From Chloroflexota bacterium (GTDB lineage: Bacteria; Chloroflexota; UBA11872): 64,000 nucleotides of DNA. Position 1 is the stretch's first letter; each line of letters starts with the position of its first letter. The stretch is taken from NCBI GenBank assembly GCA_026707585.1, contig JAPOWQ010000029.1, positions 293,362 to 357,361 of the forward strand, given 5' to 3'. Below the pieces are notes generated by a model. The model ran no database searches, had not been told where the DNA came from, and saw nothing but the letters and a program-made list of their open reading frames with translations. Below are positions 13,729-50,595 of this stretch, piece after piece. The translations under genes and the position numbers were made by a program.

Positions 13729-14023
13729 GCGCGAAATCTCCTGAGCTGTGCCCAGTCAGCCTGGTGAAACGTTGCGTGATGCTCCGCGACACACCTGCCC
13801 GCACCGGTTTGCGAGCGAGCAAGGCGACGCCGAAGCCTTATTGAGTATAGGGAGAGCGCGCGCGGCCGGTCCATCCCGCCGCCCGCGCGGGCTGCTATGG
13901 CGTGGTCAGGAGGCTTCGGCAATTCGAACGCGAAGAACTTGACGCCGGCAAGCCAGCCGCAGAATATGCTTGACTGCGCGTGTGGCGTGCTATCGCAGCT
14001 TGTCGCCAGGGGAGGAATTGCGT

Positions 14024-16033
14024 ATGAGTTCTCTTAATGGACTGAGCCGACGGAGGCTGCTACAGCTCCTCGGCGGCGGAGCGGCAGCCGGCACGGCCGT
14101 GCTGATTGCCGCCTGCGGCGAAGACGAAGAACCGGCGCCGACGCCAACACCGGCCGCAACGGCCATGGCGGAAGCCACGCCGGAGCCGACCCCCGAGCCA
14201 ACGCCGGAGCCCACCGAGGCCCCAGCGCCGGCCGCGACCGCAGCCCCGGCGCGCACCGCCGCGCCCACTCGAGCCGCGACGCCTGAGCCGACCCCCGAGG
14301 CCATGAAGGAAATGATGGGGGCGACCGGTCCGCGCGAGAATGTGCCGCGCAACCGGACGGTGATCGCGGAGAACATCTCGGGCCGCAACGCCAACCCCGA
14401 GGTCTTCAACCCCTTCAGCAACAGCATGACCATGCACACCGGGTCGCAGCAGCTGGCGATTGAATCCGTCATCTACATCAACCTGCAGACCGGCCAGGAA
14501 GAGCTCTGGCAGATCGACGGGTTCGAGTACGACGAGGGCTTCAACGGCGTCACGATGAACGTGCGCGAGGGCGTGGAGTGGTCGGACGGCATGCCGTTCA
14601 CAGCCCACGACATCGCCTTCACGCTGAACATGCTGCTCAATGGCACGGCGGACCTGCGCTGGGCCGTGGACGTTCAGGAGTGGGTCAAGTCGGCCCACGC
14701 CGACGACGACATGACCGTGCACATCGAGTTCAACAAGCCCAACCCTCGATTCATGTCGCAGATGTTCGCGACCCTTTACTGGTCGGTCTACATCGTTCCC
14801 AAGCACATCTGGGAAGGCAAGGACCCGGCCACGTTCACCAACTACGACCCGGACCAGGGCTGGCCGGTGTTTACAGGTCCATACACGCTGACCTCCACCA
14901 CCGAGCTTGAGACGGTGTGGGACCGGAACGACAACTGGTGGGGCGCCAAGGCCGCGCCGCCCATCGGCGGCGTGGACCGCCAGACGCCGCTGGCCCTGCC
15001 GAAGCCCGAGCGTGTGATCTTCGTTGGCGTGGAGAACGCCGAGAAGCGTGCCGCCAGTGCCATCGCCAACGAGCAGGACACGTTCTGGCACATGCCGCGC
15101 AGCGTCTACGAGCAGGTCAATAGCGAGAACCCGAACATCAAGGCCTGGTTCCCGGACCTGCCGTATGCCTACTTCGACCCGGCGCCGCGGCACCTGGCCT
15201 TCAACCTGAAGGCGCCGCCGTTTGACAACGCGGACGTGCGCTGGGCGATCTCGTACGCGGTCGACCGCGAGAAGATCGTGGAGTTCGCCTACGAGGGCAT
15301 CACCACGGTCACCGACGTATTCTTCCCGCACACGCCGGCCATGGACGTCTTCTACCAGCACGCCGCCGACCTCTTTGAGAAGTACCCGGCCAAGGAGTTC
15401 AACCTCGAGAAGAGCGCTGAACGCATGGAGGCCGCGGGCTACTCGAAGAACTCCGACGGTCTCTGGGCCGACGGGGACGGCAACACCGTGGTCATGGAAA
15501 TCCACGTGCGCGGTGGAGAGGAAGACCAGCAGCGCGTGGCGCCGATCCTGGCCGACCAGTTACGGGTCGCCGGATTCGACTCCACGTTCAAGATCACCGA
15601 GGCCGGCGCCTTCTTCGACGGCATCGCCCGCGGCGACATCCTGACCAACATGCAGTTGGTGGGCGGCAATACGGTCAACGTGGCCGACCCGTGGGGTACC
15701 TGGCGACTGCTTCACAGCAGCCACTCGGCGCCGATCGGCGAGGTTGCAACCGGACAGCGCTCGCGCTTCGAGAATGCCGAGTTCGACGCCATTGTGGATG
15801 CAATGGCCGGGTTAACCACCAGCGACCCGGAAATGAAGAGCCTGTTCTACGACTCGATGGAGATCATCCTCCGCGAGATGCCCATCGTGTCGATCGTCCA
15901 GACGGCATTGTTGACACCCAACAACTACACGTACTGGAGCAACTGGCCCGACATCGCGAACGACTACCAGGCGCCTTCGCAGTGGTGGGGCAACTTCTAC
16001 CACAGCATCCTGACGATCGAGCCCACGCAGTAG
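14024..16033 (+). CDS. ABC transporter substrate-binding lipoprotein, family 5
   Basis: 669 residues from the ATG at 14024, which has a GGGGAGGA ribosome site about 10 bp upstream; an in-frame GTG farther up is less likely. Twin-arginine SRRRLLQLL leads to lipobox IAAC (Cys31), suggesting Tat export and lipid anchoring. A Pro/Thr/Ala-rich linker of about 70 residues follows. The mature domain resembles DppA/OppA-type proteins: VEWSDGMPFTAHDIAFTLN, then ADVRWAISYAVDREKIVE and NNYTYWSNWP near the end. It delivers substrate to the permeases encoded divergently and to the ATPases downstream. A strong hairpin lies just after the stop. Confidence 0.93.
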   Translation: MSSLNGLSRRRLLQLLGGGAAAGTAVLIAACGEDEEPAPTPTPAATAMAEATPEPTPEPTPEPTEAPAPAATAAPARTAAPTRAATPEPTPEAMKEMMGATGPRENVPRNRTVIAENISGRNANPEVFNPFSNSMTMHTGSQQLAIESVIYINLQTGQEELWQIDGFEYDEGFNGVTMNVREGVEWSDGMPFTAHDIAFTLNMLLNGTADLRWAVDVQEWVKSAHADDDMTVHIEFNKPNPRFMSQMFATLYWSVYIVPKHIWEGKDPATFTNYDPDQGWPVFTGPYTLTSTTELETVWDRNDNWWGAKAAPPIGGVDRQTPLALPKPERVIFVGVENAEKRAASAIANEQDTFWHMPRSVYEQVNSENPNIKAWFPDLPYAYFDPAPRHLAFNLKAPPFDNADVRWAISYAVDREKIVEFAYEGITTVTDVFFPHTPAMDVFYQHAADLFEKYPAKEFNLEKSAERMEAAGYSKNSDGLWADGDGNTVVMEIHVRGGEEDQQRVAPILADQLRVAGFDSTFKITEAGAFFDGIARGDILTNMQLVGGNTVNVADPWGTWRLLHSSHSAPIGEVATGQRSRFENAEFDAIVDAMAGLTTSDPEMKSLFYDSMEIILREMPIVSIVQTALLTPNNYTYWSNWPDIANDYQAPSQWWGNFYHSILTIEPTQ

Positions 16034-20065: not shown

Positions 20066-21559
20066 ATGATCCTGGTCACCGGAGCCACAGGCTACATCGG
20101 CGGACGACTGGTGCCTCGCCTCATTCAGGATGGCCATCGCGTCCGCGTGCTAGTGCGAAGCCGTGCGCGTGCGCGTGCTCGCTCATGGTCCAGTCGGGTC
20201 GAGATCGTGATTGGCGACGTCCTCAGTCCTCATGACCTGTCCAAAGCGCTTCAGGGAGTGCAGACCGCCTACTACCTGATTCACAGCATGACCAGGGGAG
20301 CCAGCTTCGGCAATCTCGATGCCCGTGCAGCCCGCGCCTTCGGTCTGGCAGCACGGGACTCTGGCGTTCAGCGCATCATTTACCTGGGAGGCCTCGGTCA
20401 GCCGGCCGCCGAATTGTCCCGTCACTTGCGCTCGCGTCACGAGACGGGACGAGCGTTGCGCGAAGGCGGGGTTCCCGTCACCGAGTTTCGGGCCGCGGTC
20501 ATTGTCGGCTCTGGCAGCATCTCGTTTGAAATGATTCGGCATCTCGTCGAACGCCTCCCGGTCATGGTCTGTCCCAGGTGGATCTACTCGCGGATTCAAC
20601 CCATCGCGGTTGACGACGTTCTGGCCTACCTGGTTGCGTCGCTCGAAGTGTCCGACAGCCAGGGGCAGATCATCGAGATCGGTGGTCGCGACGTCACGAC
20701 CTATCGAGGATTGATTCTCGGTTATGCAGCCGCACGAGGTCTGCGGCGATTGCTGGTACCCGTTCCGGTTCTAACCCCACGCTTGTCGTCCTATTGGGTT
20801 CACTGGATCACACCCATTCCGTCTGGCATTACCAGTGCGTTGGTGGAGGGGCTTCGCAACGATGTGGTTGTCACGGAACCTCGCGCCCGCAAGCTCTTTC
20901 CGCACATTGAGCCCCTCAACTTCGCCTCGGCGCTCGACCGGGTGATGGAGGACCTTGACCAGGGGCTCATCGATACATCCTGGAGCGACGCCGCCGGCCC
21001 GGCGCCCGAGCCTGGGCGGCAGGTCGTGCTCGAATCAAGTCGAGGATTGATCGTCGAGCGCCGCGGCCGTCGCATCGCGGCCCCCGCTGCCGATGTCTAC
21101 CGGGTGATCGCTGGCATTGGAGCGGCGCGGGGGTGGTACTTCGCCAACTGGACGTGGCGGATTCGCGGAATGCTGGATCGGCTCCTGGGCGGCGCTGGAC
21201 TGCGCCGGGGACGACGGCATCCCGATGACCTGCGCATTGGCGATGCCCTCGACTTCTGGCGAGTCGAGGATCTCGAAGTCGACCGCCGTATTCGGCTGCG
21301 CGCTGAGATGAAACTCCCCGGTCGGGCTTGGCTTCAATACAGACTCACGGCGGCGCCTGACGGATCAACCCACATCGATCAGGCGGCCGCGTTTAGTCCG
21401 AAGGGACTGGCCGGTCTCCTCTACTGGTATGCCTTGTACCCCGTACACGCCTGGATCTTTGATGGGTTGGCCACAGCCATTGCCAAACGTGCCGAGCGTG
21501 CGGCGGCGCCCCCGGCAGGATTCGAACCTGCGACCCACGGCTTAGAAGTACGGCGGTGA
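20066..21559 (+). CDS. SDR/NmrA-like NAD(P)-binding protein with DUF2867-like C-terminal domain; 3' end altered by island insertion
   Basis: 497 residues. The N-terminus has the nucleotide-binding GATGYIGG (residues 6-13) and GDV...AYYLIHSM, as in the YbjT/NmrA-like group. From about residue 325 a second, lipid- or ligand-binding-like domain (RVIAGIGAARGWYFANWTWR, then DALDFWRVED) resembles DUF2867. The last 16 codons translate the tRNA 3'-end repeat and stop just inside the island. If the island is removed in silico at the 47-bp repeats, the frame would run on through the tRNA antisense to a TAA near 50647. The insertion therefore changed the C-terminus, but all recognisable domains remain. 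Confidence 0.85.
   Translation: MILVTGATGYIGGRLVPRLIQDGHRVRVLVRSRARARARSWSSRVEIVIGDVLSPHDLSKALQGVQTAYYLIHSMTRGASFGNLDARAARAFGLAARDSGVQRIIYLGGLGQPAAELSRHLRSRHETGRALREGGVPVTEFRAAVIVGSGSISFEMIRHLVERLPVMVCPRWIYSRIQPIAVDDVLAYLVASLEVSDSQGQIIEIGGRDVTTYRGLILGYAAARGLRRLLVPVPVLTPRLSSYWVHWITPIPSGITSALVEGLRNDVVVTEPRARKLFPHIEPLNFASALDRVMEDLDQGLIDTSWSDAAGPAPEPGRQVVLESSRGLIVERRGRRIAAPAADVYRVIAGIGAARGWYFANWTWRIRGMLDRLLGGAGLRRGRRHPDDLRIGDALDFWRVEDLEVDRRIRLRAEMKLPGRAWLQYRLTAAPDGSTHIDQAAAFSPKGLAGLLYWYALYPVHAWIFDGLATAIAKRAERAAAPPAGFEPATHGLEVRR
21502..21548. repeat. Left 47-bp direct repeat (attL), tRNA-Arg 3' half
   Basis: Identical over 47 bp to 50517-50563. Bases 21507-21548 equal the 3' half of the tRNA-Arg gene, from the anticodon loop to the discriminator base, on the minus strand. 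Only this half is present here, as expected for the displaced original 3' end after site-specific integration. Confidence 0.93.
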
Positions 21560-22189
21560 CACGCACCCCGCGCGAGCCATCCCAAACCTGTTACGGCTTC
21601 GAGGCCGATTTACAGGCCGTTGCCCCCTTCCAGGAACAATGGCACGGAAATTCTACCCTAATTCGGGGGAAACTCCGCCTGCGCCAGCGCCAGGAACTCG
21701 CGAGTCACGACTTCCACCGCCGGGCGGCGGGTAGGCCGCCCAGAGGTGCTGGTGGCTGCGCAGGCCCAATCGCGCTGCGATGACGGCCATGGGCTGGCCG
21801 TCGCAGAAGAGTTGCAGCGCCAGGGCCTGTCGCGGGGTCAGGACCGCCAAGGCCCCGCTCGGTCACCTGCTCAAAGAGCGCCCGCGTCGCGTATACGTCG
21901 GCGAAGGCACTGCGGCGAAACCGGCGGCGCGCGAGGCGTTGGACGCCAGGCAGGCTCACCAACGGCGAGTCGAGCAGGCGATACCCGTCGGCGCGGTGCC
22001 GCAGGGCGTCGTCGACCCAGCGGTAGTAGGCGGCGAACGACCGCCGGCCGCGGCGGGCTGCCCGTCGTGCGTGGGGCCGCCCGGAGATCGACGAGGCCGC
22101 GGCCTGGGACATCTGGGTCCTCGTGGTGCACGTACGGTCCCACCTCAGGGTGCCGAGCCGAGGATCCGCGGGGAAGGCAGGATTCCGTA
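21541..22189. repeat. Repeat module copy A (649 bp)
   Basis: Starts in the tRNA core CTTAGAAG and ends in GGCAGGATTCCGTA. It can be aligned along its length with copies B (24213-24810) and C (31418-32064). It carries a broken copy of the HTH gene on the minus strand. Confidence 0.88.
21658..22112 (-). pseudogene. HTH protein gene, copy A, frameshifted
   Basis: It starts MSQAAASSISGRPHAR and matches copy C closely to TRALFEQVTERG. One extra G in a G-run then shifts the frame, so the helix-turn-helix part (in copy C LTPRQALALQLF and onward) is read in another frame. The rest of the HTH coding sequence is still present and well conserved, so inactivation looks recent. Confidence 0.8.
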
Positions 22190-23207
22190 GGCACCCTCGC
22201 CGGCCGCGGAGGCGACGCACCGCCGTTCCACAGCGGTCCCCCTGCATACTGATGGTGGCGCCTGAGTACTGGGTACGGTGCGCCACCCTCCAACGGTGGC
22301 CTGGGCGAAAGCGCGCGCCGTCGGCGATATGGCCGCACCTGAACAAGCCACGCCTTACCGCCCGCGATGGCAACGCGCTGGCCGACGCAAGCTCGCGGGA
22401 TGGGTGCCCGCGGTTCGCCGACGAGGCCCCTTGTCGCGTCGTGCCGACGCACCTGCCCTCGCCGATCCGCTGAGGTGTCAATGGTGAGAGCAGCGCTGCG
22501 GGAATCGCGCTGCGCGTTGACAGCCCTGCGGCCAGCCACGGACACGATCAACGTCCCGTCCGACCCTGGCAGAGCCGGCCGTGCGACGGCGTCGAGAAGG
22601 CGACATCCGTCACGGCCACGACGACCGCGGCCTTCGTGTGCCCGCCCATGCCTTCGATGGCTTGCACCGCCAAGCTTGCGGCCGGCCGTGGCTTCGTGGC
22701 TGAGCGCCGCCGCAACCATGATGCACCCCGTACGTAGCAGAAGCAGCGGTCGACGGAGGGGCGTCGGAACAACATGCGTAAGTGTGCGCGTGCCCTCGCT
22801 GTGCACAAGCGCGAGCGCGCAAATGTCACTGAGAGTCACCTGCGGCATGACCGATCGTCACAAAATCGTCATCTGCAATACGTAAACTTTCCGGCGAACC
22901 TTCTGCACATATTCCAGACGTGACATCCTGCGCGACGCTTGCTCATCGTCGAGTCGTCAAGCGTGATTCTTGACGTCGGCGCTACGTCTGGCCGTGCTTA
23001 GCCTTACGGCGGGTGACCCGATTTACTGGATATGCCTCCGGTGGCAAAGTATATGGTTCAGCAGTATTCTTAGGATCACTTCTGTCTATGGCGTCGAGCA
23101 TAGGGTGAATTACTCTCGCTTCAGCTATTCGCATCCCCACATCTAAAGCTAAGGACGGCCAAAGGACCAAATGGACAACAGGAGAGTGCACAGCGAACAA
23201 ATGTGAC
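22190..23207. other. Stretch of about 1 kb without an intact gene; possible flavin-binding protein remnant
   Basis: No complete gene is seen. On the minus strand at about 22459-22566 one frame reads GTLIVSVAGRRAVNAQRDSR followed by ALTIDT. That recalls the strand pair of pyridoxamine-phosphate-oxidase-like flavoproteins, but it is isolated and interrupted. From about 22880 the DNA becomes AT-richer and leads into the next gene. Confidence 0.35.
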
Positions 23208-24212: not shown

Positions 24213-24810
24213 CTTAGAAGAACCAGGGTGACATGCACCCCGCGCGAGCCATCCCAGACCTGTTACGGCCTTGAGGCCGGTTTGCAGGCCGTTGCGCCCT
24301 TCCAGGAACAAAGGCACGGAAATCCTACCGTAGTTCGGGCAGAATACCGCCCGCGCCAGCGCCAGGAACTCGCGGGCCACGGCTTCGATCGCCGGGCGCC
24401 GGTAGGCGCCCCACAAGTGGTGGCGGCTGCGCAGACCCAACCGCGCCACGATGGCGGCCATCGGCTGGCCGTCGCAGAAGAGCTGCGGCGCGTGGGTCTG
24501 CCGCGGGGTCAGAATCGCCGAGGCCTGCTCAATGGCCAGCTGCAAGATCGCCCGCGTTGCGTGCACGTCGGCGAAGGCGCTGCGGCGAGAGCGCCGACGC
24601 GCCAACTGCTGGACGCCGGACAGGCTCATCAACGGCGAGGCGAGCAGGCGATATCCGTCGGCACGGTGCTGCAGGGCGTCGTCGACTCAGTGATAGTAGG
24701 CGGCGAAGGATCGGCGGCCGCAGCCTGGGGCATCCGAGTCCTTGTGGTGCACGGGCAGTCGTACCTCAGAGTGCCGAGCCAAGGATCCAGGAGGAAGGCA
24801 GGATTCCGTA
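24213..24810. repeat. Repeat module copy B (598 bp)
   Basis: Begins with the tRNA core CTTAGAAG, immediately after the secreted-protein gene, and ends in GGCAGGATTCCGTA. Relative to copy C it lacks about 48 bp inside the HTH gene's 5' part. Confidence 0.88.
24330..24733 (-). pseudogene. HTH protein gene, copy B, inactivated
   Basis: Homologous to copy C. It has a deletion near the N-terminus, an in-frame stop (a TGA where copy C encodes Trp of QWVDD), and loss of the normal stop codon, so the frame runs on past the gene. The HTH core SAILTPRQTHAPQLFCDGQP is still readable. Confidence 0.8.
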
Positions 24811-25502
24811 CGCGCAAACCTTCGCTCGAGTTGCCGGGTGAGCAGAATGACGTCAGGCGCTGCGGATGTACATCCGTTGCTCGAACCCTTTCCGTAGTCA
24901 ATGCGCATGGCTCGATGATCAGAGCGGTTGCGCCTCCCGATCATGCGGCCAACGCCCTATTCGAGGGCTAGGTCTAGGGGCATGGGGCGTGTGCTCCCTT
25001 GATAATCTCCGCATGCCCTGTCCCAGTGCGCGATGCGTCCGCTCTCGGACTCGTCCACGTGCGCGTGGACACGGTTCAACCGTTGGCCCTAGCGTTGACC
25101 TTAGGAGATCCCACCTTGGCGGACACGGACTGGGCTACGTCCTGCTGGTCGGCTACCCCCCTAGGGTCGAAGTGTCGCCGGGGTTCGGGCCTCGGCCTTG
25201 GTTGAGCGCCGACGCATCTGTTGTCGGGCTAGGCGGACTGCGTCGCTGGGTGTCTCGGCCAGTTCGGTGACTGGGAGAGGGTTCCTCTCTCGGTCCCTTG
25301 GAAAAATTACGATGTCTACGAAGCCTATAATCCGTCGTTCCTCGACGAAATGTATTCGCAGATTGACACGACTAATGAGTGATCCCGAAAGTGGATTCTG
25401 GGTTCTCTACGCTCGGCGAGGGCGTTCCTACGAAGTCATTCCTGGCCAATACAACCGCACCCTCACCGAAAGCGGGTGCGTTCTACTCTTGGGAGGGTAG
25501 CA
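24811..25502. other. Gap of about 690 bp upstream of the protease gene
   Basis: No gene I can support. Open frames here are short and Arg/Ser/Pro-rich. The last 200 bp become AT-richer and presumably contain the protease promoter. A GGGAGGG ribosome site lies at its end. Confidence 0.5.
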
Positions 25503-26396
25503 ATGCAAACATCAATACTGGAAGACAGCCACATAGCATGCCCATTTCAAGTCCTAATGCTCGACTCGCAAGGGGTCATCGGCCTCGGAACCGCATTCTT
25601 CTATGAGCACGCAGCTGAGAACTTCATTATCACCAACTGGCACAATGTTGTCGGCAAGCATCCCTATACGGGTGAAGCTCTGCATGACGAGCGAAGCCCG
25701 AGTCTCATGGCAGCAAAATGGCCTTCGCTGGAGGGCATTGAAGATCTGGGAGACGGCCTGCTACGTACCCACTTTCAGGCTCAACCCATTTCGATAGAAG
25801 ACGAAGGCCAGCCACTATGGTTTGAGCATCCCGAGTTCGGCTCAGTGTGCGACGTAGTGGCAATTCCATTCCAGAAACCCGACAATTGGCCTCCCGTCAC
25901 CCACAAAGCAGCCAACAAGATCGAGGAAGGTTCAATTCCTATACGTCCTGGAACCTCCGTTGCTGTAATCGGATTCCCACTGGGTTTGAGTACTGGTCCG
26001 GGATTGCCGCTGTTCAAAACCGGCTGCCTCTCCTCAATTCCAGGATTTGAGATCCGACTCGGGGGCGAGTTCTCGCCGGTGGGAGGACTGAAGAGTGGCA
26101 TAAGAACTCCAGCACTGTTGCTTGACGTTCACACACTTCCGGGAATGTCAGGCTCGCCAGTCTTCGCGGAGCATTCGGGTTTGTGGAATCCTGCCGACCC
26201 ATTAGCCTCGGGCATAACTGGAAATTCCGTTATCGGAACTGGCCGTATGTTCCTGGGCTGTCACAGCTCCAGGGTTTTGGGGCTTGAGGACAGAAGTGGG
26301 CTGGGCCTGTGTTTCGGGGAAGACGTGATCAAGGAGATCTGCCAAGCCAGATTCCCAGGGAGTCGATGTGTAGGGATTAGCTCAGAGAGCGCATAA
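25503..26396 (+). CDS. Trypsin-like serine protease
   Basis: 297 residues from the ATG at 25503, preceded by GGGAGGG at a good distance; an in-frame GTG at 25476 is less likely. The catalytic triad of a chymotrypsin-fold peptidase is clear: His47 in FIITNWHNVVG, Asp117 in CDVVAIPF and Ser216 in LPGMSGSPVF. There is no signal peptide or membrane segment, so it should act in the cytoplasm. A large HSP90-like ATPase/nuclease gene follows 547 bp later on the same strand. In bacterial conflict systems intracellular trypsin-like proteases often cleave a partner effector. That role is inferred here, and the intact triad supports a working enzyme. Confidence 0.88.
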   Translation: MQTSILEDSHIACPFQVLMLDSQGVIGLGTAFFYEHAAENFIITNWHNVVGKHPYTGEALHDERSPSLMAAKWPSLEGIEDLGDGLLRTHFQAQPISIEDEGQPLWFEHPEFGSVCDVVAIPFQKPDNWPPVTHKAANKIEEGSIPIRPGTSVAVIGFPLGLSTGPGLPLFKTGCLSSIPGFEIRLGGEFSPVGGLKSGIRTPALLLDVHTLPGMSGSPVFAEHSGLWNPADPLASGITGNSVIGTGRMFLGCHSSRVLGLEDRSGLGLCFGEDVIKEICQARFPGSRCVGISSESA

Positions 26397-26943
26397 CCCA
26401 AGTGCCCTAAGGGCACAGGCCGGCTCTAGGGGGCGTGTCTCGAATCTTGTCTAAACATCGCAAGCTCGGAAGTCAAAGTCAAAGCTGTTGACTTCGTCAA
26501 GTCCGGTGCACCATGGCGTACTGAACTGCAAACCTCTTAGTAGGTGGTCCTCATATAGGAACAAGATCTTCGAACCCTAAATTGACTCAGCAAGCCTCCG
26601 GCACATTGGGGTTGGAGATACTCTCGGTATCGAGGACAGCTCCCGGCCGTCCCGAGATTGGCGGGGATTATCGCCGGAAGGACTATGCAGAGACAATGCG
26701 AAGAATCGCGACAGCGCACTCTTTTCAATGGGTAATCCCGAGTAGTTATACATGTGGAGCCGTAACTCCTCTCTCTCCATCGCCGATCTTACATCGTCCT
26801 ATAGACAAGTCGGCGACATCATGGCCGCAGTCTCACTCCGGATGTGTATCGTTGGTAGGTAATTGGTCTATCGCTGGGAAGATGCTAGCATGACTGTCAC
26901 GGATACCTTCTTAGGATGACCGACGACCGAGGAGTACTTCATC
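26397..26943. other. Gap of 547 bp between protease and ATPase genes
   Basis: No convincing gene. A 103-residue open frame at 26582-26893 (+) has no recognisable features. A GAGGAG ribosome site lies at 26929-26934, 9 bp before the ATPase start. Confidence 0.5.
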
Positions 26944-29900
26944 GTGACAATGCCGAAAAACGAATTTGACTCGATTATAAGCCAGGTACTCACTGACAAC
27001 ACAGCCCAGAGTGTCTTGAATCATCTCACAACATTGGAATCGAACCGTGCCCGCGTGCGGACGCGGTGGATCTGGGAACTACTGCAAAACGCACGGGATG
27101 CATCGGCTAATCCTGATGCAGATCTGATTGCCTCCATCGAGCAGAGCGATGATGAAGTCGTCTTTCGCCACAATGGGAGGCCCTTTGAGCGAGAGGAGAT
27201 AATCCACCTGATTTACCATGGCTCTACAAAGGTCGACAATCCAGAGGACCTCGGACGGTATGGCAGCGGTTTTCTAACTACCCACTTGCTTTCACCTGAG
27301 ATTGGAGTTTCCAGTCAGCTTGAAGATGGTCGGCGTTTCAATTTCCAACTGAAACGCGACGTTGGATCGGTTGGTGAGCTCAGTAAGTCGATGCAGGGTG
27401 CGGCTACAGCTTTTGTGAATTCGCTATCGAATGGGCTGCGTACTGGTTCTTCCTACACCACGGAGTTTCGGTATCCGTTGAGAAACGACGCCTCTGAGGT
27501 CGTGGCGGAGGGCATTGCGACACTGAAGCGATGCGCTCCCTTTGTGGTTGCCTTCAACCGGGAGTTTTCTAGCATCAGGATTGAGTCCTCTGGAAATACC
27601 GTGGAGTTCCGAGTCAGTGGACGTCAGAGCATGAAACAGAACCAATTTGAATTGGTCACGGTGGTAGAGACTAAGAATGGCAACGGCATGGCCCGTGAAT
27701 ACCTTGTGGCACAGGGTGAGAAATCGTCAGTTGCTATTCCAGTAGGATCGGTGACCGACGGGCGTGTGGTGTTGCCGATTGACCACACCCCACGTCTGTT
27801 CTTGGGATTTCCGCTGATGGGTACCGAGAACTTCAGCTTTCCTGCCGTCATCAACAGTTTCCGATTCTCTCCGACGGAACACCGCGACGGCGTGTTTCTA
27901 TGGCAGGCAGAGGACACTCCTGACGCGGCTAACCAAGAAAACCAGGCTGTCATCGAAGAAGCCTGCGAGTTGCTTACCCAGATGCTGCGTTTCGTCGCGT
28001 GTTCTGGCTGGAGGAAAGCCTACCTTCTGGCCGAGATTCCCGAAATACAGACGCAGACATGGCTGAATGAAGAGAGGCTTCGCGAATGTCTAGCCGAGCT
28101 GCTTATAGAGAGAATCCGAGAAACACCCGCGGTTCTTAGTGAATCTGGAGGAGCCCTATCCCCGCAAGACGCCGAACTGCCACTTGCTGGCACCGCAGAA
28201 GGCGTGGTCACCTTGTGGGATCTGCTGGCGGAGTGGCAAGAAGAACAGGACATCTGGCCGAGGCGCGACGAAGCATTCGGCTGGAGTAATGCCGTCAGGA
28301 GTTGGGCTAGACTAACAGATTTTGAAGTTTCGTCATTCATTGAAGGTCTCGATGGTCGAAAACTAGCTTCGAGAGTCCATAGGGTATCGCGGGATCAGTC
28401 AGCCACAACGAGAACCCATCGTGTCAGTCAGTTGGCGTCCCAGTTGAAGGAGGGTGTCTCCGCAATTGACTGGCTCGACCGGTTGATTGGTTTTCTCCGC
28501 AATGAAGGACTGGGGGAGGTAGTCAGTGAACACCGCATCGTTCCAAGTCAGGAGGCTTCTCTCCGAGTCCTGCCCCAACTGCATCGCGACGCGGGAATCA
28601 GTGAGGAACTGAAAAACGTCGCCGACTTCCTGGGTTGGCGAATCAGACCAAGCCTTCGGGACCCTCGGATCGCTTCCGTTTCCGAAGAACTCGGTTTGGG
28701 CGACTGGGATAACGCGTATGTCGTTGGGAAACTTAGCAGAAGAATTCGCGAAAGGGCCGATGAAGACCCAGACGACGATTTCAGGAAGGCGAGCATTGAA
28801 CTCTTCACCTGGATGGTGCAGCAGGAGGCTTGGGAAGCCCTACGCGGTTACCCCGCTGTCTCACGAATGCTAGGCCCCGACCAGCCCACCGCCGTTGTTT
28901 ACCTGCCAAACAATGACCAGGATGTTGAACCTCCGCTTGCCCCCGTCGGGGCATGGCCGGAAGACCTGCGTCCCTTCGCAGACCTCTTCCCTCCAAACCG
29001 TATTCTGGCAGACGATTTCCTTCGTGCGTTCCCCAACGCTGATGACTGGCGACCGCTTGTTGAACTGCATCTGGTCAGGACGGACATTCTCAATCCCAGA
29101 AGTGTCAGCTTCGACCGATTCTATCCCGACCAACCGTTAGATGACGCGGTTGATCATAGGACAGTGAACGAAGTCGAGGTAACGGACGTCTGGCGTCAAT
29201 CGGAAACCATTAATCGTGTACGGGACAGCCAGGAACGTGCCGGGTTGTTCTGGCGTTTTCTAAGCGAGTATCTTGTTCCCAGAAACATCCATAGCCTCGA
29301 CGCCCATACTGCCGACTGCGAGTGTGGAGATAGCCATCGATACTTTCCGGCAGCTTGGCTTGAGCCAGTCCGAGAGAACAGTTGGGTTCGCCTGGCAAAC
29401 GGCAGGCGAGACAGACCCAACGCCCGGTCTCTTGCAAATCTTATGAAGGCTAGTGGATGGACTCCCAGCTCTTCAGACAGAGACTCAGCAGTGGACAAAC
29501 TTCTGGAAGCGATCGACGTGTCTCGCTTCGACCTGATCCTGGAATCCGTCGCCGAAGACAACGATTCCCGCGCAGCAGTTCATAGTGCATTCACAGATAT
29601 ACTGGAAACTGCCAAGGGGAACGTGGACGATCTTGCTCATGTCCCACAGTATCTGGAAGACCTGAGAAACGACGAAGCTCTTCCCGAGGTCCTGAATGAA
29701 CGCCGAGAACGAAGGCGTCAGGTACAGGAAAACCAACATCTGGGCAGCCAGATTGAAGTGTTGGTGAAGCAGAGCTTGGAGGGCGAGGGCTTTACTGTAC
29801 GGCGCACGGGAATCGGTTCAGACTTCGCTATTGAGTTCAACGATATAACCAGATTGGAACTGGCCAAATCAGGCAGAACTTGGTTGGTCGAAGTCAAGGC

Positions 29901-30246
29901 CACTCGCGACAACAGGGTCAGCATGACGGATACGCAGGCTGTCACGTCGGTCAACGAAGGGGATGGATTCCTGCTCTGCGTTGTTCCAGTACAGGGTGAA
30001 GTCGCGGACTTGGAGTTACCAACTATTCGAGAGAGTATGCTCTTCGTGGCCAACATCGGCCCACGCCTGGACGAATTCTGCAGCAATCTCAATGCTCTCA
30101 ACGCATTTAGAGAAACCATTACGTCGGAAGACGCCGAGGGTATTCAGCTGGAAGTTGATTCTGCCAACGCGAGAATTCGTGTCGCCAACTCCGTATGGGA
30201 AAATCACGGAATTCGGCTTGAGGATCTCCCATCCAGGATACAATAG
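26944..30246 (+). CDS. Giant HSP90-like (sacsin N-terminal type) ATPase with C-terminal DUF3883-like nuclease domain
   Basis: 1100 residues from the GTG at 26944 (GAGGAG 9 bp upstream). The first 200 residues form a GHKL/HSP90-like ATPase of the sacsin type: N-box WELLQNARDA with Glu45, Asn49 and Asp52, then FRHNGRPF at 74-81 and glycine box GRYGSGFLT at 104-112. The long middle region (about 300-900) has no domain I can name. Near the C-terminus, from about residue 935, lies a PD-(D/E)XK-like fold: GSDFAIEF (Asp960) and WLVEVKAT (Glu983, Lys985), as in DUF3883-type modules. ATP-driven dimer closure could gate a nuclease. Such GHKL-plus-nuclease proteins (MORC/paraMORC-like and sacsin-like) are known from restriction and conflict loci. 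The upstream protease and the island setting suggest phage defence. Confidence 0.87.
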   Translation: MTMPKNEFDSIISQVLTDNTAQSVLNHLTTLESNRARVRTRWIWELLQNARDASANPDADLIASIEQSDDEVVFRHNGRPFEREEIIHLIYHGSTKVDNPEDLGRYGSGFLTTHLLSPEIGVSSQLEDGRRFNFQLKRDVGSVGELSKSMQGAATAFVNSLSNGLRTGSSYTTEFRYPLRNDASEVVAEGIATLKRCAPFVVAFNREFSSIRIESSGNTVEFRVSGRQSMKQNQFELVTVVETKNGNGMAREYLVAQGEKSSVAIPVGSVTDGRVVLPIDHTPRLFLGFPLMGTENFSFPAVINSFRFSPTEHRDGVFLWQAEDTPDAANQENQAVIEEACELLTQMLRFVACSGWRKAYLLAEIPEIQTQTWLNEERLRECLAELLIERIRETPAVLSESGGALSPQDAELPLAGTAEGVVTLWDLLAEWQEEQDIWPRRDEAFGWSNAVRSWARLTDFEVSSFIEGLDGRKLASRVHRVSRDQSATTRTHRVSQLASQLKEGVSAIDWLDRLIGFLRNEGLGEVVSEHRIVPSQEASLRVLPQLHRDAGISEELKNVADFLGWRIRPSLRDPRIASVSEELGLGDWDNAYVVGKLSRRIRERADEDPDDDFRKASIELFTWMVQQEAWEALRGYPAVSRMLGPDQPTAVVYLPNNDQDVEPPLAPVGAWPEDLRPFADLFPPNRILADDFLRAFPNADDWRPLVELHLVRTDILNPRSVSFDRFYPDQPLDDAVDHRTVNEVEVTDVWRQSETINRVRDSQERAGLFWRFLSEYLVPRNIHSLDAHTADCECGDSHRYFPAAWLEPVRENSWVRLANGRRDRPNARSLANLMKASGWTPSSSDRDSAVDKLLEAIDVSRFDLILESVAEDNDSRAAVHSAFTDILETAKGNVDDLAHVPQYLEDLRNDEALPEVLNERRERRRQVQENQHLGSQIEVLVKQSLEGEGFTVRRTGIGSDFAIEFNDITRLELAKSGRTWLVEVKATRDNRVSMTDTQAVTSVNEGDGFLLCVVPVQGEVADLELPTIRESMLFVANIGPRLDEFCSNLNALNAFRETITSEDAEGIQLEVDSANARIRVANSVWENHGIRLEDLPSRIQ

Positions 30247-30668
30247 TGAGATAGTAATACCCTCCGCTATCACTTTGAGACGATTTCATAAGTGAGAGTC
30301 TAATGAGATCTTTTGGCATACATGGTTCGGCAAGGGGAGGGTATCAACACTGCGGCTTCCTCAAGTCTGCTGCGGTCTTTGTCCTGTGCTGATCGTCTCG
30401 ACTTCTCGCTGCTACTCCAGCGCCGACTTGAACATCGAGAGGGCGGTGGTCTCGACCGGAATCGAATCGCCGACCTTTTCAACGCCATTGCGGCGACGGG
30501 TCAGGGCCGCTGCGACGCTCGTCGGCAACGTGCTCGGCGAGCGTGTTGAGGTTCAGCACGACGAGCTCGGACAGGACGGGCACCGAGCGTAGGCTACAAA
30601 GGTGTCGGGTAACTACGGTTCGCAGGCCGTCGGCGGTCTTGGGGACCTGTTCGAGTTCTGGGGAAGTG
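30247..30668. other. Gap of about 420 bp between convergent genes
   Basis: No gene recognised. The middle part (about 30440-30660) is GC-richer than its surroundings and has only short, biased frames, so it may be a remnant of unrelated DNA. Confidence 0.45.
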
Positions 30669-31358
30669 TCAACCGAGGTGTTGAGGGAGGCCAGCCTCGG
30701 CAATTTCACCAATTTCGTTCCAAGATAGTACGTTCTGTTCCTTCATCCATCCTTTGGAGATCATAAACTTCACTTGAGTCGTGCGCGTTAAGCTTGCAAT
30801 CTTACCTGCGTTGCCGACGATGAATGCGATCACAGTCTTATTGCTAGATATCAAATCGATAAGGATTCTAGCCATCACATACTGACGAATCATCTGGTGC
30901 ACCAGGACATACGCGCGATTCGTGCCCAGATCGCCTTCGTCCTTAGCCTCACCGATAAAGAGATGCCTCGGGGTTTGTAGGACAATGTCTATCTCTGTTC
31001 TCGCAAGATTGTCAGACAATTTGTCGGAATGCGACGCATCATAGTTGCAGTCCTTCAGATTGTTAAATCCTCTGAAACCCTCTATTGCCTCACGCAAACT
31101 ATAAAAGTGATTCCGATAGCTCTGTGCAAAGCAATCGGATAGTTCCCCGGCCTTGAGAGATTCTCTTTCTAAGTAGTCACGCATCCCTTTCCAAAACAGC
31201 TCAATCTGAATGTCCCTACTTGGAGTGTCTTCGGGCTCGCCCAGTCGCTGGGCAAGAACTGCACGGGCTGAGTCGCACTCGATGAATGGAGCGAAGTATC
31301 GGGCCGTTCTCCAGTTTTCTGTCCTGTTACTGATCCCTAGAATTGTCACGGCATCCAC
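30669..31358 (-). CDS. PD-(D/E)XK nuclease-like protein
   Basis: 229 residues, GTG start. The middle has the layout of a restriction-endonuclease-like core: TEIDIVLQTPRHLFIGEAKD, with Asp124 on one strand and Glu137-Ala-Lys139 on the next, giving D-(x12)-ExK. A helix rich in Gln and aliphatic residues follows (VHQMIRQYVMARILID) and then a strand (VIAFIVGN). The N-terminal 100 residues carry no recognised motif. It runs convergent to the ATPase gene, is similarly AT-rich, and is the last gene before the next repeat module. It may be a stand-alone nuclease of the same defence locus. Confidence 0.72.
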   Translation of the reverse strand: MDAVTILGISNRTENWRTARYFAPFIECDSARAVLAQRLGEPEDTPSRDIQIELFWKGMRDYLERESLKAGELSDCFAQSYRNHFYSLREAIEGFRGFNNLKDCNYDASHSDKLSDNLARTEIDIVLQTPRHLFIGEAKDEGDLGTNRAYVLVHQMIRQYVMARILIDLISSNKTVIAFIVGNAGKIASLTRTTQVKFMISKGWMKEQNVLSWNEIGEIAEAGLPQHLG

Positions 31359-31379
31359 GTGGAATCAGGCATGGGTCGC

Positions 31380-31425
31380 TGGTGTGCCTAGCGAGACTCG
31401 AACTACGCAGGCTAGCATTTAGATG
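31380..31425 (-). other. tRNA 3'-end-like remnant at an island joint
   Basis: Read on the minus strand, the core TTTAGATG-like stretch is followed by GTAGTTCGAGTCTCGC and then TAGGCACACCA. This resembles a T-loop, an acceptor strand and CCA. The T-stem does not pair well, so it is not a functional tRNA. It sits directly before repeat module C, as the tRNA-Arg fragment sits before module A. Confidence 0.45.
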
Positions 31426-32064
31426 TACGGCCGTGACACACACCCCTCGCGAGCCATCCCAAACCTGTTACGGCGCTGCGGCCGATCTACAGGCCGTTGC
31501 CCTCTTCCAGGAACAATGGCACCGGACTTCTACCCTAATTCTGGGAAAATTCCGCCTGCGCCAGCGCCAGAAACTCGCGCGTCACCGCCTCCACCGCCGG
31601 GCGCCGATAGGCGGCCCAGAGGTGCTGCCGGCTGCGCAGACCCAAGCGCGCCGCAATGACGGCCATCGGCTGGCCGTCGCAGAAGAGCTGCAGTGCCAGG
31701 GCCTGCCGCGGGGTCAGAATCGCCGAGGCCTGCTCAGTCGCCCGCTGCAGGAGCGCCCGCGTTGCGTGCACGTCGGCGAAGGCACTGCGTCGGAAGCGCC
31801 GGCGCGCGAGCCGTTGGACGCCCGGCAGGCCGACTAAAGGCGAGTCGAGCAGGCGATAACCGTCGGCGCGGTGCCGCAGCGCGTCGTCGACCCATTGATA
31901 GTAGACGGCGAATGATCGGCGGCCGCGGCGGGCTGCGCGGCGCGCGTGGGGCCGCCGGGAGATCGATGAAGCCGCGGCTTGGGGCATCCGACTCCTAGTG
32001 GTGCACGGGCGGTCGTACCTCAGAGTGCCGAGCCTAGGCTCCGGGAGGAAGGCAGGATTCCGTA
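31418..32064. repeat. Repeat module copy C (647 bp), the copy with an intact gene
   Basis: Begins TTTAGATGTACGGC, a variant of the tRNA core plus the module's first bases (copy A CTTAGAAGTACGGC), and ends GGCAGGATTCCGTA. It contains the uninterrupted HTH gene. Confidence 0.88.
31535..31987 (-). CDS. Small arginine-rich helix-turn-helix protein repeated at island joints (intact copy)
   Basis: 150 residues. A basic N-terminus (RRPHARRAARRGRRSF) is followed by YYQWVDDALRHRADGYRLLD and another basic helix. Residues about 90-140 form a helix-turn-helix with LTPRQALALQLFCDGQP and IAARLGLRSRQHLWAAYRRP, resembling sigma-70 region 4 or LuxR-type DNA-binding helices. No other domain is present, so it should bind DNA. 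Copies A and B elsewhere in the island are broken. Each copy lies 100-120 bp from a tRNA-core sequence and points away from it. A role in integration, excision or control of the element is suggested by position only; the family is not one I can name. Confidence 0.7.
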   Translation of the reverse strand: MPQAAASSISRRPHARRAARRGRRSFAVYYQWVDDALRHRADGYRLLDSPLVGLPGVQRLARRRFRRSAFADVHATRALLQRATEQASAILTPRQALALQLFCDGQPMAVIAARLGLRSRQHLWAAYRRPAVEAVTREFLALAQAEFSQN

Positions 32065-32275
32065 CTCTTACTCAGCGAGCTTCCACGACGCATGCGCGCT
32101 GGGTCGGCATCCCCGCATAGCCGACCGATTCTCATAAGTGGAGGTTCGCAAGACTAAATGCGACTTGGATCCAGTGCCAGGTGTGGAGCACTACGATGTC
32201 TTATGCAGCGAATTAAGGCCCACAGTAGTTTCGCGCCTGGTGCTTAGCACAAGGCCTGTGGGGCACTGGCACCCA

Positions 32276-33175: not shown

Positions 33176-33468
33176 GAGCTAGCCCCGTCTGCCCGGAAGA
33201 CAGGGGCCGACCAGAGCATGCCAAGACAAGCTCTATATACGTCCAGGGCTGGGCGGCGAGTGGGTACATTGGACTAATGCCGGGCGCAGGAGATTGCGCC
33301 GAGGCCCAGTTCCCAGGTGTGCCCGAAGGCTTCCCGTTCGTTGCGGCCTCAGTCAAAGGTAGTGTCGGAGTTTGAGACTGTGGGCTGACTGGCGCCGTTC
33401 GTACGGTGTGGCCCGGTGGCGGGACTTGGGGGACTTCCCATTTTCCTACCTACGACGGATGTGGCAAA

Positions 33469-34170
33469 ATGAGCATCCTTTCCCTTTCGATTCCGGCCAT
33501 GCCGTTTCCACCCACGTTCTACGGACTGGACACCGACCGGGAGTTGGCTCGTCTTGAGTTAGGCCCCAACGCGCAGGATCGCTTTGTCGACGCAGTTGAG
33601 GCAGGTCACATCGACGCCGGACAAGCGACGACTTACAGCGCGCGGTCCGATGCCGGGTCCAGGCGGTGGTACCGCATGGTGCAAGTACTTCGCGAGCGCC
33701 TACATGTGGATCTCGGTTGGCATAAGAAGGACACCGGCGGGTGCACGCTGTCGCTCCGGCCCGATGGCCTCATCGCTGTCCAGGTGGCGAGAGGTACGTA
33801 CAGGACAGGTCTGCCAGGCTACGGCCCGTCATTTGCCAACCCAAAGGGCGTGTACACGGTGCGGGCCGCCGACATCAACCAGATGGTTATGCGCGATCCG
33901 CTGACCGGCCAAACCATGGCTACGGTACCGAAGTACAGCGATACGCCTCCCCCGTGGGTTACATGGTTTTTGATGTACTACGTGGACCGGACCGAGGACA
34001 GTCTAGAAGTGCGGTCGGAACTATCGCTGCTCAATAGCCTAAGCGCCGATGGTAGGGCCTGTACATGGGGGCAGCGCAACGTGATTCGGTCGATGCCCAT
34101 CACGGATGAACCGGCAATTGGCCTCCCGCCTGAGTCAACCGGCGACGCGGACATTAGGCGACAGGCCTAG
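33469..34170 (+). CDS. Hypothetical protein paired with an XRE-ImmA peptidase
   Basis: 233 residues from the ATG at 33469. There is no signal peptide, membrane segment or named domain. The sequence is soluble and mixed, with LGPNAQDRFVDAVEAGHIDA, a region rich in aromatic and Arg residues (SRRWYRMVQVLRERLHVDLG) and WVTWFLMYYVDRTEDSLEV toward the C-terminus. Its TAG shares one base with the GTG of the next gene, an XRE-ImmA/IrrE protease, so the two are translationally coupled. In such pairs the ImmA protein commonly controls or cleaves its partner. This gene could encode the controlled factor or a toxin. Confidence 0.65.
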   Translation: MSILSLSIPAMPFPPTFYGLDTDRELARLELGPNAQDRFVDAVEAGHIDAGQATTYSARSDAGSRRWYRMVQVLRERLHVDLGWHKKDTGGCTLSLRPDGLIAVQVARGTYRTGLPGYGPSFANPKGVYTVRAADINQMVMRDPLTGQTMATVPKYSDTPPPWVTWFLMYYVDRTEDSLEVRSELSLLNSLSADGRACTWGQRNVIRSMPITDEPAIGLPPESTGDADIRRQA

Positions 34171-35255
34171 TGCTCGAATCCCAGGTGACCCTGAGTCCCA
34201 GCCGCCTGACCTTGGCGCGCCACCTGCGTGGGCAGACCAAAGTGGAGCTAGCGGCAGCCAGTGGTATTTCCCGACGGAGCCTTGCGAACTATGAAGCCGG
34301 GCGCTCGCTTCTCGGCCAATCGGCGGCCATGCGGCTAGCCCAAGTGTTGAATGTGTCTATCGAGTTTCTCATGGCCGCCGAAGTGGACCCGCCACCGGCG
34401 GAAGCCATCAGCTTTCGGTCGCTCAGCAGGTTGCCGGCCCGGACCCGTGACCGCGCCTGTGCCTTGGCCACGTTGGCCAGCCACTTGTCCGACTGGCTGA
34501 CTGACAAGATTGATCTACCGGAGGCCGACCTACCCGACTGGCAGTACGTGAACCCGGAAGCGGCGGCCGAGGGCCTACGCGCTCAGTGGGGTCTTGGCGT
34601 AGAACCATGCCCGCCACTGGTCCCGTTGCTGGAAGCTCATGGGGTGAGGGTTTTTTCTTTGGCCAGGCTCGCAAACCAGTGGGTTGGGCTAGACGGGCTG
34701 TCGTTCTGGCATGGGACCACGCCCATTGTGTTGATCGACACGGCCATGCCCACGTCGCGACTCCGCATGTCATTGGCCCATGAACTGGGTCACTTGGTTC
34801 TCCACAAAGCACACGGATTGGCCGATCGTCGTGTGACCGAGCACGAGGCCGCCAAGTTTGCGTCGGCATTTTTGTTACCAAGTAACAGCCTGACGACCTG
34901 CGGCGTCCGCACATACAACGTGGAAGCCATCGTGCAACTCAAGGCGGTGTGGGGTGCATCCGTGGCGGCCCTAGCACGGCGGCTGTACGAGATCAAGATG
35001 TTGTCCGAGTGGAACTACCGACAGGTCTTCATTCAACTCAGCATTCTGGGCTGGCGGAAGGGCGAGCCGGAGGACACCGAGCGCCCGCTACCTAGTGAGG
35101 CGTCGGTCCTGCTCCGCAAGGTCTTCACGACCTTACGGACAGACGGTACGACCCGCCCAGCCGTGGCCAAAGCTCTCCATCTGGAGATGGACGACCTCGA
35201 TGCTCTGTTGGTCGGGTTGGTTCCCACCACCGTGGCGCCCGTAGCCACCCCCTAG
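34170..35255 (+). CDS. XRE-family helix-turn-helix protein with ImmA/IrrE zinc peptidase domain
   Basis: 361 residues from a GTG overlapping the previous stop. Residues 12-60 are an XRE helix-turn-helix (LTLARHLRGQTKVELAAASG, then RSLANYEAGRS). From about residue 150 it is an ImmA/IrrE-type (DUF955) metallopeptidase with zinc motif HELGH at 204-208 and a downstream EHEAAKFASAFLLPS segment supplying the third ligand and substrate groove. Proteins of this layout sense a signal and cleave or derepress a partner in mobile elements and toxin-antitoxin loci. The coupled upstream gene is the obvious partner. GC content here is close to the chromosome. Confidence 0.88.
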   Translation: MLESQVTLSPSRLTLARHLRGQTKVELAAASGISRRSLANYEAGRSLLGQSAAMRLAQVLNVSIEFLMAAEVDPPPAEAISFRSLSRLPARTRDRACALATLASHLSDWLTDKIDLPEADLPDWQYVNPEAAAEGLRAQWGLGVEPCPPLVPLLEAHGVRVFSLARLANQWVGLDGLSFWHGTTPIVLIDTAMPTSRLRMSLAHELGHLVLHKAHGLADRRVTEHEAAKFASAFLLPSNSLTTCGVRTYNVEAIVQLKAVWGASVAALARRLYEIKMLSEWNYRQVFIQLSILGWRKGEPEDTERPLPSEASVLLRKVFTTLRTDGTTRPAVAKALHLEMDDLDALLVGLVPTTVAPVATP

Positions 35256-40287: not shown

Positions 40288-41211
40288 TTGCCAAGTCACC
40301 TCGTCCAAACGAACGGAGTCAGGATCACTCGCTGTCAGTCGTGGGACGAGTTTATCCAGGGTCTGAGACATGTCGCAGCGAAGCATCATGCACCGAGGCT
40401 ATTTCGTGGCCACGCTCGCCCAAACTGGAAGCTATCTTCGACTTGGGAGAGAGAACTAAACCGATTCCGCTCTGAGGAACGACCCTTCAGCCGGCGCCGG
40501 ATCTACGAAGCAACTGGCGGCTACGAAAGAGAACGAGATAGTGGTCTCGAAAAGTTCAAACAGCTTGCCAAGGCAATGCCTGAAATCCCTTTGCAGATCA
40601 ACGACCCCGACGATGATTGGTGGGCCCTGGGTAGACACTATGGCTTGGAAACTCCTCTCCTTGATTGGTCTCGCAGTCCGTTCATTGCTGCCTTCTGGGC
40701 TTTCGCAGAGCGATTAGAAGCTGAAAGGGCTCGTCCAGATCGGACGCATAAGATGACTATCACCTATGAGTCGGAGCAGCCAGTTGTGGTCTGGGAGCTT
40801 GGTTATCTGGATCCCGATCCGATTGCTTCACAAGGCAGAAGGGTATTTGAAGAGAGCGAGTTCGATTTAATTGACAATGCAACCTACGATCTCCATAGGC
40901 AAAGAGCTCAACAAGGTGTCTTTACTCGTCTTGAACACGATGAGTACACCGACGTTGAGAGTTATTTAGCATCGAAGGGCCTTGGTGGCTTTCTGGAGCG
41001 ATACGAAGTCCCTTGCTATTCTATGGATGATCTAAGCGTTGCAATGTCTGACCTAGAGCGGATGAATATTCACTACGGCACTGTATTTCCCGATCCTCAG
41101 GGTGCTGCGTTACAGACCAATATGGAGCCTGAATGGGACATGTTTAGAAATGAAGGCGAAGGATCCCATGAGACGCCAGTCTGGGGGCGAGCTCCAGTGA
41201 TTGAAGGCTAG
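40288..41211 (+). CDS. FRG domain protein
   Basis: About 307 residues; the start is a TTG at 40288 and uncertain. The FRG domain is clear: LFRGHARPNWKLSSTWERE, then WWALGRHYGLETPLLDWSRS and PFIAAFWAF, matching the family pattern FRG...W.L....R and QHYG.PTRLLDW. The domain is widespread in bacterial conflict loci; its chemistry is not firmly established. The gene ends 5 bp before a type ISP-like restriction-modification gene, and both share AT-richer composition. The two are probably one operon, with FRG as an accessory effector or regulator. Confidence 0.85.
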   Translation: MPSHLVQTNGVRITRCQSWDEFIQGLRHVAAKHHAPRLFRGHARPNWKLSSTWERELNRFRSEERPFSRRRIYEATGGYERERDSGLEKFKQLAKAMPEIPLQINDPDDDWWALGRHYGLETPLLDWSRSPFIAAFWAFAERLEAERARPDRTHKMTITYESEQPVVVWELGYLDPDPIASQGRRVFEESEFDLIDNATYDLHRQRAQQGVFTRLEHDEYTDVESYLASKGLGGFLERYEVPCYSMDDLSVAMSDLERMNIHYGTVFPDPQGAALQTNMEPEWDMFRNEGEGSHETPVWGRAPVIEG

Positions 41212-41216
41212 GCAGT

Positions 41217-50436: not shown

Positions 50437-50516
50437 GGAATCCACCCTGGGGGCGCGGCCGGTGACCTCGGCCGACACGTCCGCTAACAGGTTCGGGTCG
50501 GGCTGCGCCTCAAGGT

Positions 50517-50563
50517 GGCGGCGCCCCCGGCAGGATTCGAACCTGCGACCCACGGCTTAGAAG
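50517..50563. repeat. Right 47-bp direct repeat (attR), within tRNA-Arg
   Basis: Identical to 21502-21548. It covers the tRNA from the anticodon loop to the 3' end plus 5 bp beyond. The crossover probably falls in or near the anticodon loop, the usual exchange region for tyrosine integrases of this kind. Confidence 0.93.
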
Positions 50564-50595
50564 GCCGTCGCTCTGATCCACTGAGCTACGGGGGC
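50522..50595 (-). tRNA. tRNA-Arg, anticodon UCU
   Basis: A cloverleaf folds on the minus strand: acceptor GCCCCCG/CGGGGGC with discriminator G, D-arm with GCTCAGTGGATCAGAGC, anticodon stem ACGGC/GCCGT around loop CTTCTAA (anticodon TCT), and T-arm GCAGG-TTCGAAT-CCTGC. No CCA is encoded. It is intact because the island restored its 3' half on insertion. Confidence 0.95.

Follow-up and report, generated by a model that had tools for sequence, protein, structure and literature searches.

Two adjacent genes in a Chloroflexota bacterium raise the question of whether neighbours on a mobile element form one defence system or only travel together. They lie in a stretch of 64,000 nucleotides (contig JAPOWQ010000029.1 of assembly GCA_026707585.1, positions 293,362 to 357,361; hereafter, the window) and encode, on the same strand, a stand-alone trypsin-like serine protease of 297 amino acids (aa; 25503–26396, + strand) and a protein of 1100 aa (26944–30246, + strand). 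An earlier note on this DNA had proposed that the two make up an undescribed defence system. We find that the large protein is, judged by its sequence, a diverged new member of the named Tiamat (TmtA) family, hence of an already described kind, and that the protease looks like a passenger, placed beside it by chance when one mobile segment brought in both genes.

The open reading frame (ORF) of the large protein is intact, from a GTG at 26944 to 30246, and matches the PADLOC profile PDLC03967 (TmtA) over its full length (E 7.8e-174, residues 4–1097 on positions 4–1054 of 1063). The assignment to Tiamat is by match to this TmtA profile. The PADLOC table itself gives only the name TmtA, which we take to be the protein of the Tiamat system, presumably described originally as a single-gene system. 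With its GHKL domain in front and its nuclease at the back, the window protein resembles Tiamat throughout, even if it is only 20–53% identical to the other 30 rows of a family alignment. Its nearest rows in the tree are metagenome-assembled genomes of Chloroflexota and Poribacteria, lineages that are often sponge symbionts.

The front of the protein (residues 1–355; 26944–28008, + strand) matches the sacsin-type N-terminal domain of NCBIfam (NF047352, 58.8 bits for a cut-off of 50), and residues E45, N49, D52, G104, G107, and G109 are unchanged in all 31 aligned members of the family. We built an AlphaFold2 model from 31 family sequences (mean confidence score, pLDDT, 83.7). Its residues 1–355 align with topoVI-B (1mx0; VIA-align Z 15.8, 281 residues, root-mean-square deviation [rmsd] 4.0) and with Hsp90 (6xld; Z 15.6, 271 residues, rmsd 5.6), and a sequence search of solved structures gave, for TmtA, a weak match to HtpG (0.0058). 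In the model, this part is thus a GHKL ATPase with an Hsp90/topoVI-B-like transducer. It is followed by a middle part (residues about 356–900; 28009–29643, + strand) predicted to be mostly helical, with pLDDT mostly of 75–96 up to about residue 840 and lower after it. Foldseek gave no convincing match for this part among solved structures; because a single domain filled the VIA list, the missing matches are no evidence of a new fold. Where the earlier note had counted about 600 unexplained residues, about 130–150 of them (up to residue 355) would belong to the transducer, and the matchless part is reduced to residues of about 356–900.

The other end of the protein (residues about 928–1100; 29725–30243, + strand) is a predicted PD-(D/E)XK nuclease domain, in which D960, E983, K985, and Q998 are unchanged in the 28 rows of the nuclease-bearing set. 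Residues 356–1100 were modelled separately from 28 sequences (pLDDT 83.6). The last about 170 residues match the archaeal Holliday junction resolvase Hjc (2eo0; VIA-align Z 11.1, 107 residues, rmsd 2.9), and the C-terminal domain also matches the SPARDA chain 9qcc_M (Z 9.4, 128 residues, rmsd 4.3). These model comparisons point to an Hjc/SPARDA-like nuclease. No Pfam family matched the large protein itself at E≤0.001; NOV_C was matched at this threshold by 11 of the 31 family members. The architecture described in the earlier note, with a sacsin-type GHKL ATPase at one end and a DUF3883-like PD-(D/E)XK nuclease at the other, is therefore confirmed. A sacsin-type ATPase with a NOV_C-type (DUF3883) C-terminus is also the architecture of plant NO VEIN proteins, which are longer than the window protein; the latter differs from them in being bacterial and in having intact nuclease residues. 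Tiamat matches in plant-associated metagenomes were found to sit on plant DNA, as stated in the accessible part of one study (PMC12409356), which would fit this resemblance. Tiamat has also been located in island hotspots of Pseudomonas, according to an excerpt of another study (PMC12629846).

The family to which the protein belongs has exchangeable ends. We scanned 84,980 species genomes with two short peptide patterns, so that only genes fitting one of them are detected, and kept 80 of the 100 relatives; a viral contig brought the number of TmtA-like loci to 81. One of them (L097) had no matching ORF of at least 90 aa and was dropped from the counts, leaving 80. Among these, 37 have the nuclease of the window type fused at the C-terminus, 10 a fused NOV_C type, 19 another C-terminus, and 14 are unclassed, a split that leans on profiles built from members of the same locus set. 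In 12 of the 19 loci with another C-terminus (L062, L067, L068, L069, L074, L077, L079, L081, L092, L101, L113, and L122), the TmtA-like gene is followed at −3 to +38 bp by a same-strand AlbA_2 (Schlafen) gene, and no such gene is found within 2.6 kb downstream in the 47 fused-nuclease loci (37 of which have at least 1.2 kb on the right). Pfam searches of seven of these partners found AlbA_2 in all of them (once below the cut-off) and also TIR in three, and the partner in L069 matches PADLOC PDC-S35. The TmtA-like gene without a nuclease end and its AlbA_2 gene thus look like a two-gene system of sensor and effector. In a tree of 71 of the 80 loci and the window, the labels are clustered: the AlbA_2 group takes three changes (at least two forced by the starred branches) and the fused-nuclease group five (at least three), so more than one origin is forced for each group. 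With the ATPase conserved and its ends and partners variable, the architecture favours a view of TmtA as a sensor ATPase with exchangeable effectors, in which the nuclease would be the part that executes. A literature search, which covered little subscription content and did not retrieve the paper naming Tiamat, returned, among the titles listed, none on a pair of AlbA_2/Schlafen-TIR and GHKL proteins, and no paper combining Tiamat with either TmtA or HSP90.

Some loci show other arrangements. In L087 and L089, an AAA_21/AAA_15 ATPase of the AbiEii type is encoded 12 and 66 bp after the TmtA-like gene. The end of a cyanobacterial TmtA-like ORF of 1698 aa (L100) matches Peptidase_S10 (E 1.5e-17), possibly another exchange of ends. 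TmtA-like genes are split over two or three frames in L045, L055, L060, L062, L101, L113, and others, by decay or sequencing error.

The protease ORF is also intact, from an ATG at 25503 to a stop at 26396, and the same frame opens at a GTG at 25476 too. It matches Trypsin_2 (E 7.3e-08, 33.7 bits for a cut-off of 27.6), and its triad (H47, D117, S216) is unchanged in all five rows of an alignment with four relatives, each 30–31% identical to it. Its N-terminus has, by inspection, no hydrophobic or signal-like stretch, in agreement with the intracellular-type protease with intact triad that had been recognised earlier. Sequence searches of solved structures gave weak matches to serine proteases, the best being SplE (0.00053). 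The protease and TmtA genes indeed share their base composition (both 54.0% GC, with 55.7 and 56.9 at third codon positions, in a window of 63.4%) and their strand; 547 bp separate them, without an operon-like junction. A scan of 25270–27000 for promoters and terminators gave results at chance level. A possible small ORF of 62 aa (25312–25500, + strand) ends 2 nucleotides before the protease start; it has no convincing homologue, and its one weak match (E 0.58) lies beside no protease.

If the two genes formed a system, they should be found together elsewhere, and in the 81 other TmtA-like loci the pair was not found. Searches of the TmtA-like loci with the protease and five other seeds, against 7,535 ORFs of at least 60 aa, matched only L050 (E 0.025) and L102 (0.93). 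A five-row profile of the protease, against which five distant control relatives scored 5.5e-09 or better, found nothing below E 0.001 in the 81 loci; its only match there was L050 (E 0.0029). With a less strict motif scan, three ORFs came up: those of L047 and L055, about 3.6 kb upstream, resemble the protease in length and motif, and that of L101 lies at a distance of about 10 kb. In the 19 loci closest to the window protein, i.e., those of its own clade, no cluster of neighbours within 4 kb is shared by three loci or more, the pieces of TmtA itself aside. These ORFs were picked by simple rules rather than by a gene finder, and the flanks are partly incomplete: a minimum of 2 kb is available on either side in 51 of the 80 loci and of 5 kb in 39, and the left side reaches 3 kb or more in 17 of the 19 closest.

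Other collections give a similar picture. Among 400 genomes of the phylum, the TmtA profile matched at E≤0.001 in 40, with a clear and near full-length match in three (G000, G149, and G051). The protease family was found at E≤1e-8 in seven (two of which are rows of the profile) and, within the class, at E≤0.001 in 9 of 41 genomes. The TmtA flanks in G149 and G051 contain no protease relative. In plasmids, relatives of the protease occur in 76 records and partial relatives of TmtA in four, in different genera, and no annotated TmtA adjoins the protease in the two plasmid stretches inspected. The viral collection contains one TmtA-like contig (L122) and no relative of the protease. The conserved adjacency on which the earlier proposal of a single system depended is thus not found, and the ATPase occurs without the protease, as a system that already has a name.

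What, then, accounts for the adjacency of the two genes? They are part of an integrative element of 29 kb (21502–50563), delimited by perfect repeats of 47 bp: attL (21502–21548, + strand) is a perfect copy of the 3' part of a tRNA-Arg gene and attR (50517–50563, + strand) lies at the 3' part of tRNA-Arg(TCT) (50520–50595, − strand). A tyrosine integrase of 397 aa is encoded next to attR (49360–50553, − strand; Phage_integrase E 9.3e-35), and the replication-relaxation protein of the element at 47503–48594 (− strand; Replic_Relax E 1e-32). Inside the element, three repeats of about 600–650 bp (21541–22192, 24213–24813, and 31419–32065) serve as att-like cassette borders. The heptamer TTAGAAG of the tRNA anticodon loop, which is also the crossover heptamer, is found beside the repeat start in 27 of 34 copies, and in 0.6% of random stretches of 120 nucleotides. 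The 36 copies considered, of which 34 reach the repeat start, come from the window, from its own contig (C45), and from arrays in six related genomes; L186 was excluded because it overlaps L185. Of the three copies in the window, the first two have the intact heptamer, and copy 3 has one mismatch. The protease, TmtA, and an ORF at 30669–31358 share a single cassette of 7.2 kb (24214–31418) between copies 2 and 3 of this tandem element, and this shared mobile cassette accounts for the adjacency and equal composition of the two genes. We rejected the cassette as proof that they are one unit, because a cassette may carry several co-travelling genes.

The same kind of repeat delimits arrays in related genomes of the same family (L172–L187), mostly with different cargo between copies. 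Nine such arrays compared in other genomes contain no match to TmtA or to the protease (BLASTP, 1e-5). Their 105 ORFs of at least 190 aa match 179 PADLOC families at E≤1e-10, which include, among the matches listed (25 of the 179 families), mad2, mad3, mad6, AbiEii, PD-T4-6, and type IIG enzymes. These loci look like a tRNA-anchored array of defence cassettes. In the window, the same element encodes an FRG-domain protein (PDC-S15) and, after it, a type ISP/IIG restriction-methylase (40288–44558), both compositionally like the protease and TmtA (51.4 and 55.7% GC), and a diverged relative of the latter is found in 4 of the 9 arrays (26–28% identity). The earlier placement of the locus in a defence-rich island is therefore supported, the island being a mobile one. 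Elsewhere in the element (33406–35255), a 254-aa ORF overlaps by 1 bp the gene of a protein with helix-turn-helix and M78-peptidase domains (spr1629-like antitoxin family, below the cut-off), possibly a toxin–antitoxin pair. The tandem islands of Dehalococcoides described in an excerpt of PMC3146451 are similar in that an integrase-borne element occupies a stable RNA gene and has other islands, likewise flanked by att repeats, next to it; they use ssrA and serine recombinases, whereas the window element uses tRNA-Arg(TCT) and a tyrosine integrase.

We regard it as probable that the Tiamat protein works without the protease, its ATPase sensing and its nuclease cutting DNA, and that the protease shares its cassette as an independent gene. 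The N-terminal GHKL ATPase and transducer would bind ATP and act as an ATP-driven clamp that, together with the helical middle, would sense a signal of infection. The change would be relayed to the C-terminal Hjc/SPARDA-like PD-(D/E)XK nuclease, which once activated would cut DNA and so act against phages. Several observations weigh against this scenario. Hsp90-type ATPases have an adenine-binding Asp at the position of H76, which is nearly invariant in the 31-row alignment; because a His replaces this Asp, the ATPase activity of TmtA is in some doubt. Model confidence is lowest in the nuclease part (pLDDT blocks of about 40–84), whose best Foldseek E is modest (0.011), and the Pfam matches in the large protein are below the curated cut-offs (HATPase_c_3 0.0098, Mrr_cat 0.0029, NOV_C 0.0079). 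The split between sensor and effector is not without exceptions: 7 of the 19 loci with another C-terminus lack the AlbA_2 gene (two of them have an AAA_21 gene, two less than 0.5 kb on the right, and three no same-strand gene within 120 bp), and in L109, a fused-nuclease locus, an AlbA_2 gene lies about 2.1 kb upstream on the opposite strand. As for the independence of the protease, it shares cassette and composition with TmtA. Within the 400 genomes of the phylum, a clear TmtA and the protease family occur together only in the genome of the window, but three clear TmtA genomes are too few to give this comparison much power, and G093 weakly matches both (E≤0.001), on different contigs. One of the 19 closest loci, L050, has a different protein, with Trypsin_2 and TPR domains (13847–15643), 460 bp downstream of TmtA. 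It is the sole Trypsin_2 match among the 113 neighbours of these loci, among the matches listed (best 25 of 241 families); these are 113 of 117 ORFs, with four pieces of TmtA, ORFs below 100 aa, and contig-edge ORFs left out. Since the genome of the window has five Trypsin_2 matches, one such neighbour is unremarkable. Finally, the mechanism of Tiamat is given as unknown in the available part of a survey (PMC10482375), so that we infer both sensing and DNA cutting.

One rival is that of the earlier note, namely that the protease and TmtA are one system in which, upon infection, the protease would clip TmtA (e.g., in the low-confidence stretch near residues 890–917) and free the nuclease. Strand, cassette, and base composition are all compatible with it, as is the other trypsin-like protein near TmtA in L050, and the proteolytic activation of nucleases is established in defence: in Hachiman and AVAST, a trypsin-like protease activates a metallo-beta-lactamase (MBL) nuclease, as the accessible part of PMC12799240 describes. 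We nevertheless consider it improbable, given that no relative of the protease reaches E 0.001 in the TmtA-like loci (51 of 80 with 2 kb or more on each side) or occurs in the flanks of G149 and G051, that protease relatives are present in genomes where TmtA has no match, and that the plasmids carrying such relatives belong to different genera from those with TmtA matches. The features defining the known pairs are also absent from the window locus. In Hachiman, AVAST, Lamassu, and DRT, the MBL-type nuclease is upstream and the protease is fused to the defence enzyme (same excerpt); here a PD-(D/E)XK nuclease forms one protein with the ATPase, the protease has an ORF of its own across the 547-bp gap, the pairing was not found again, and the ORFs upstream of the protease (21871-, 23208, and 24228) contain no MBL nuclease match. 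Still less probable is a combination in which Tiamat is a branch of a modular family (a sensor ATPase with a fused Hjc-like or NOV_C-type nuclease, or with a separate AlbA_2-TIR or other protein) and the protease is here a one-off activator, an independent case of nuclease–protease coupling with a PD-(D/E)XK nuclease.

The two remaining alternatives concern the genes taken separately. The protease may by itself be a small gene of defence or conflict, similar to the PADLOC candidate PDC-S45 and parked by TmtA, a possibility compatible with the scenario we prefer and to which we give slightly less than an even chance. It matches PDC-S45 weakly (E 9e-08), and its relatives include one plasmid copy near a SIR2 protein, another near a J-domain protein, and a genomic one near an OLD-like TOPRIM protein; these neighbours differ among the few cases inspected, so they do not define a system. 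TmtA, for its part, could be a modification-dependent or Mrr-like restriction enzyme gated or switched by its ATPase, instead of a sensor that sets off indiscriminate cutting. The weak Mrr_cat match goes in this direction, as does the naming of DUF3883 as a novel restriction endonuclease domain that occurs with restriction-modification components, in the accessible part of PMC3710099. We find this unlikely, since no DNA-recognition domain was identified in TmtA and the nuclease-less relatives followed by an AlbA_2 gene fit a split of sensor and effector better.

A two-gene protease system is thus not supported at this locus. A one-off pairing of TmtA with the protease has a small probability, given that protease-activated nucleases exist in Hachiman and AVAST. 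The case illustrates that neighbourhood, common orientation, and similar composition may be misleading, since here a shared mobile cassette explains them. The value of the finding lies in its bearing on the mechanism of Tiamat, beginning with the domain map. The branches of the family that lack the nuclease and are directly followed by an AlbA_2 gene, in some cases with TIR, lead to a concrete prediction: TmtA would be a conserved sensor with a swappable effector.

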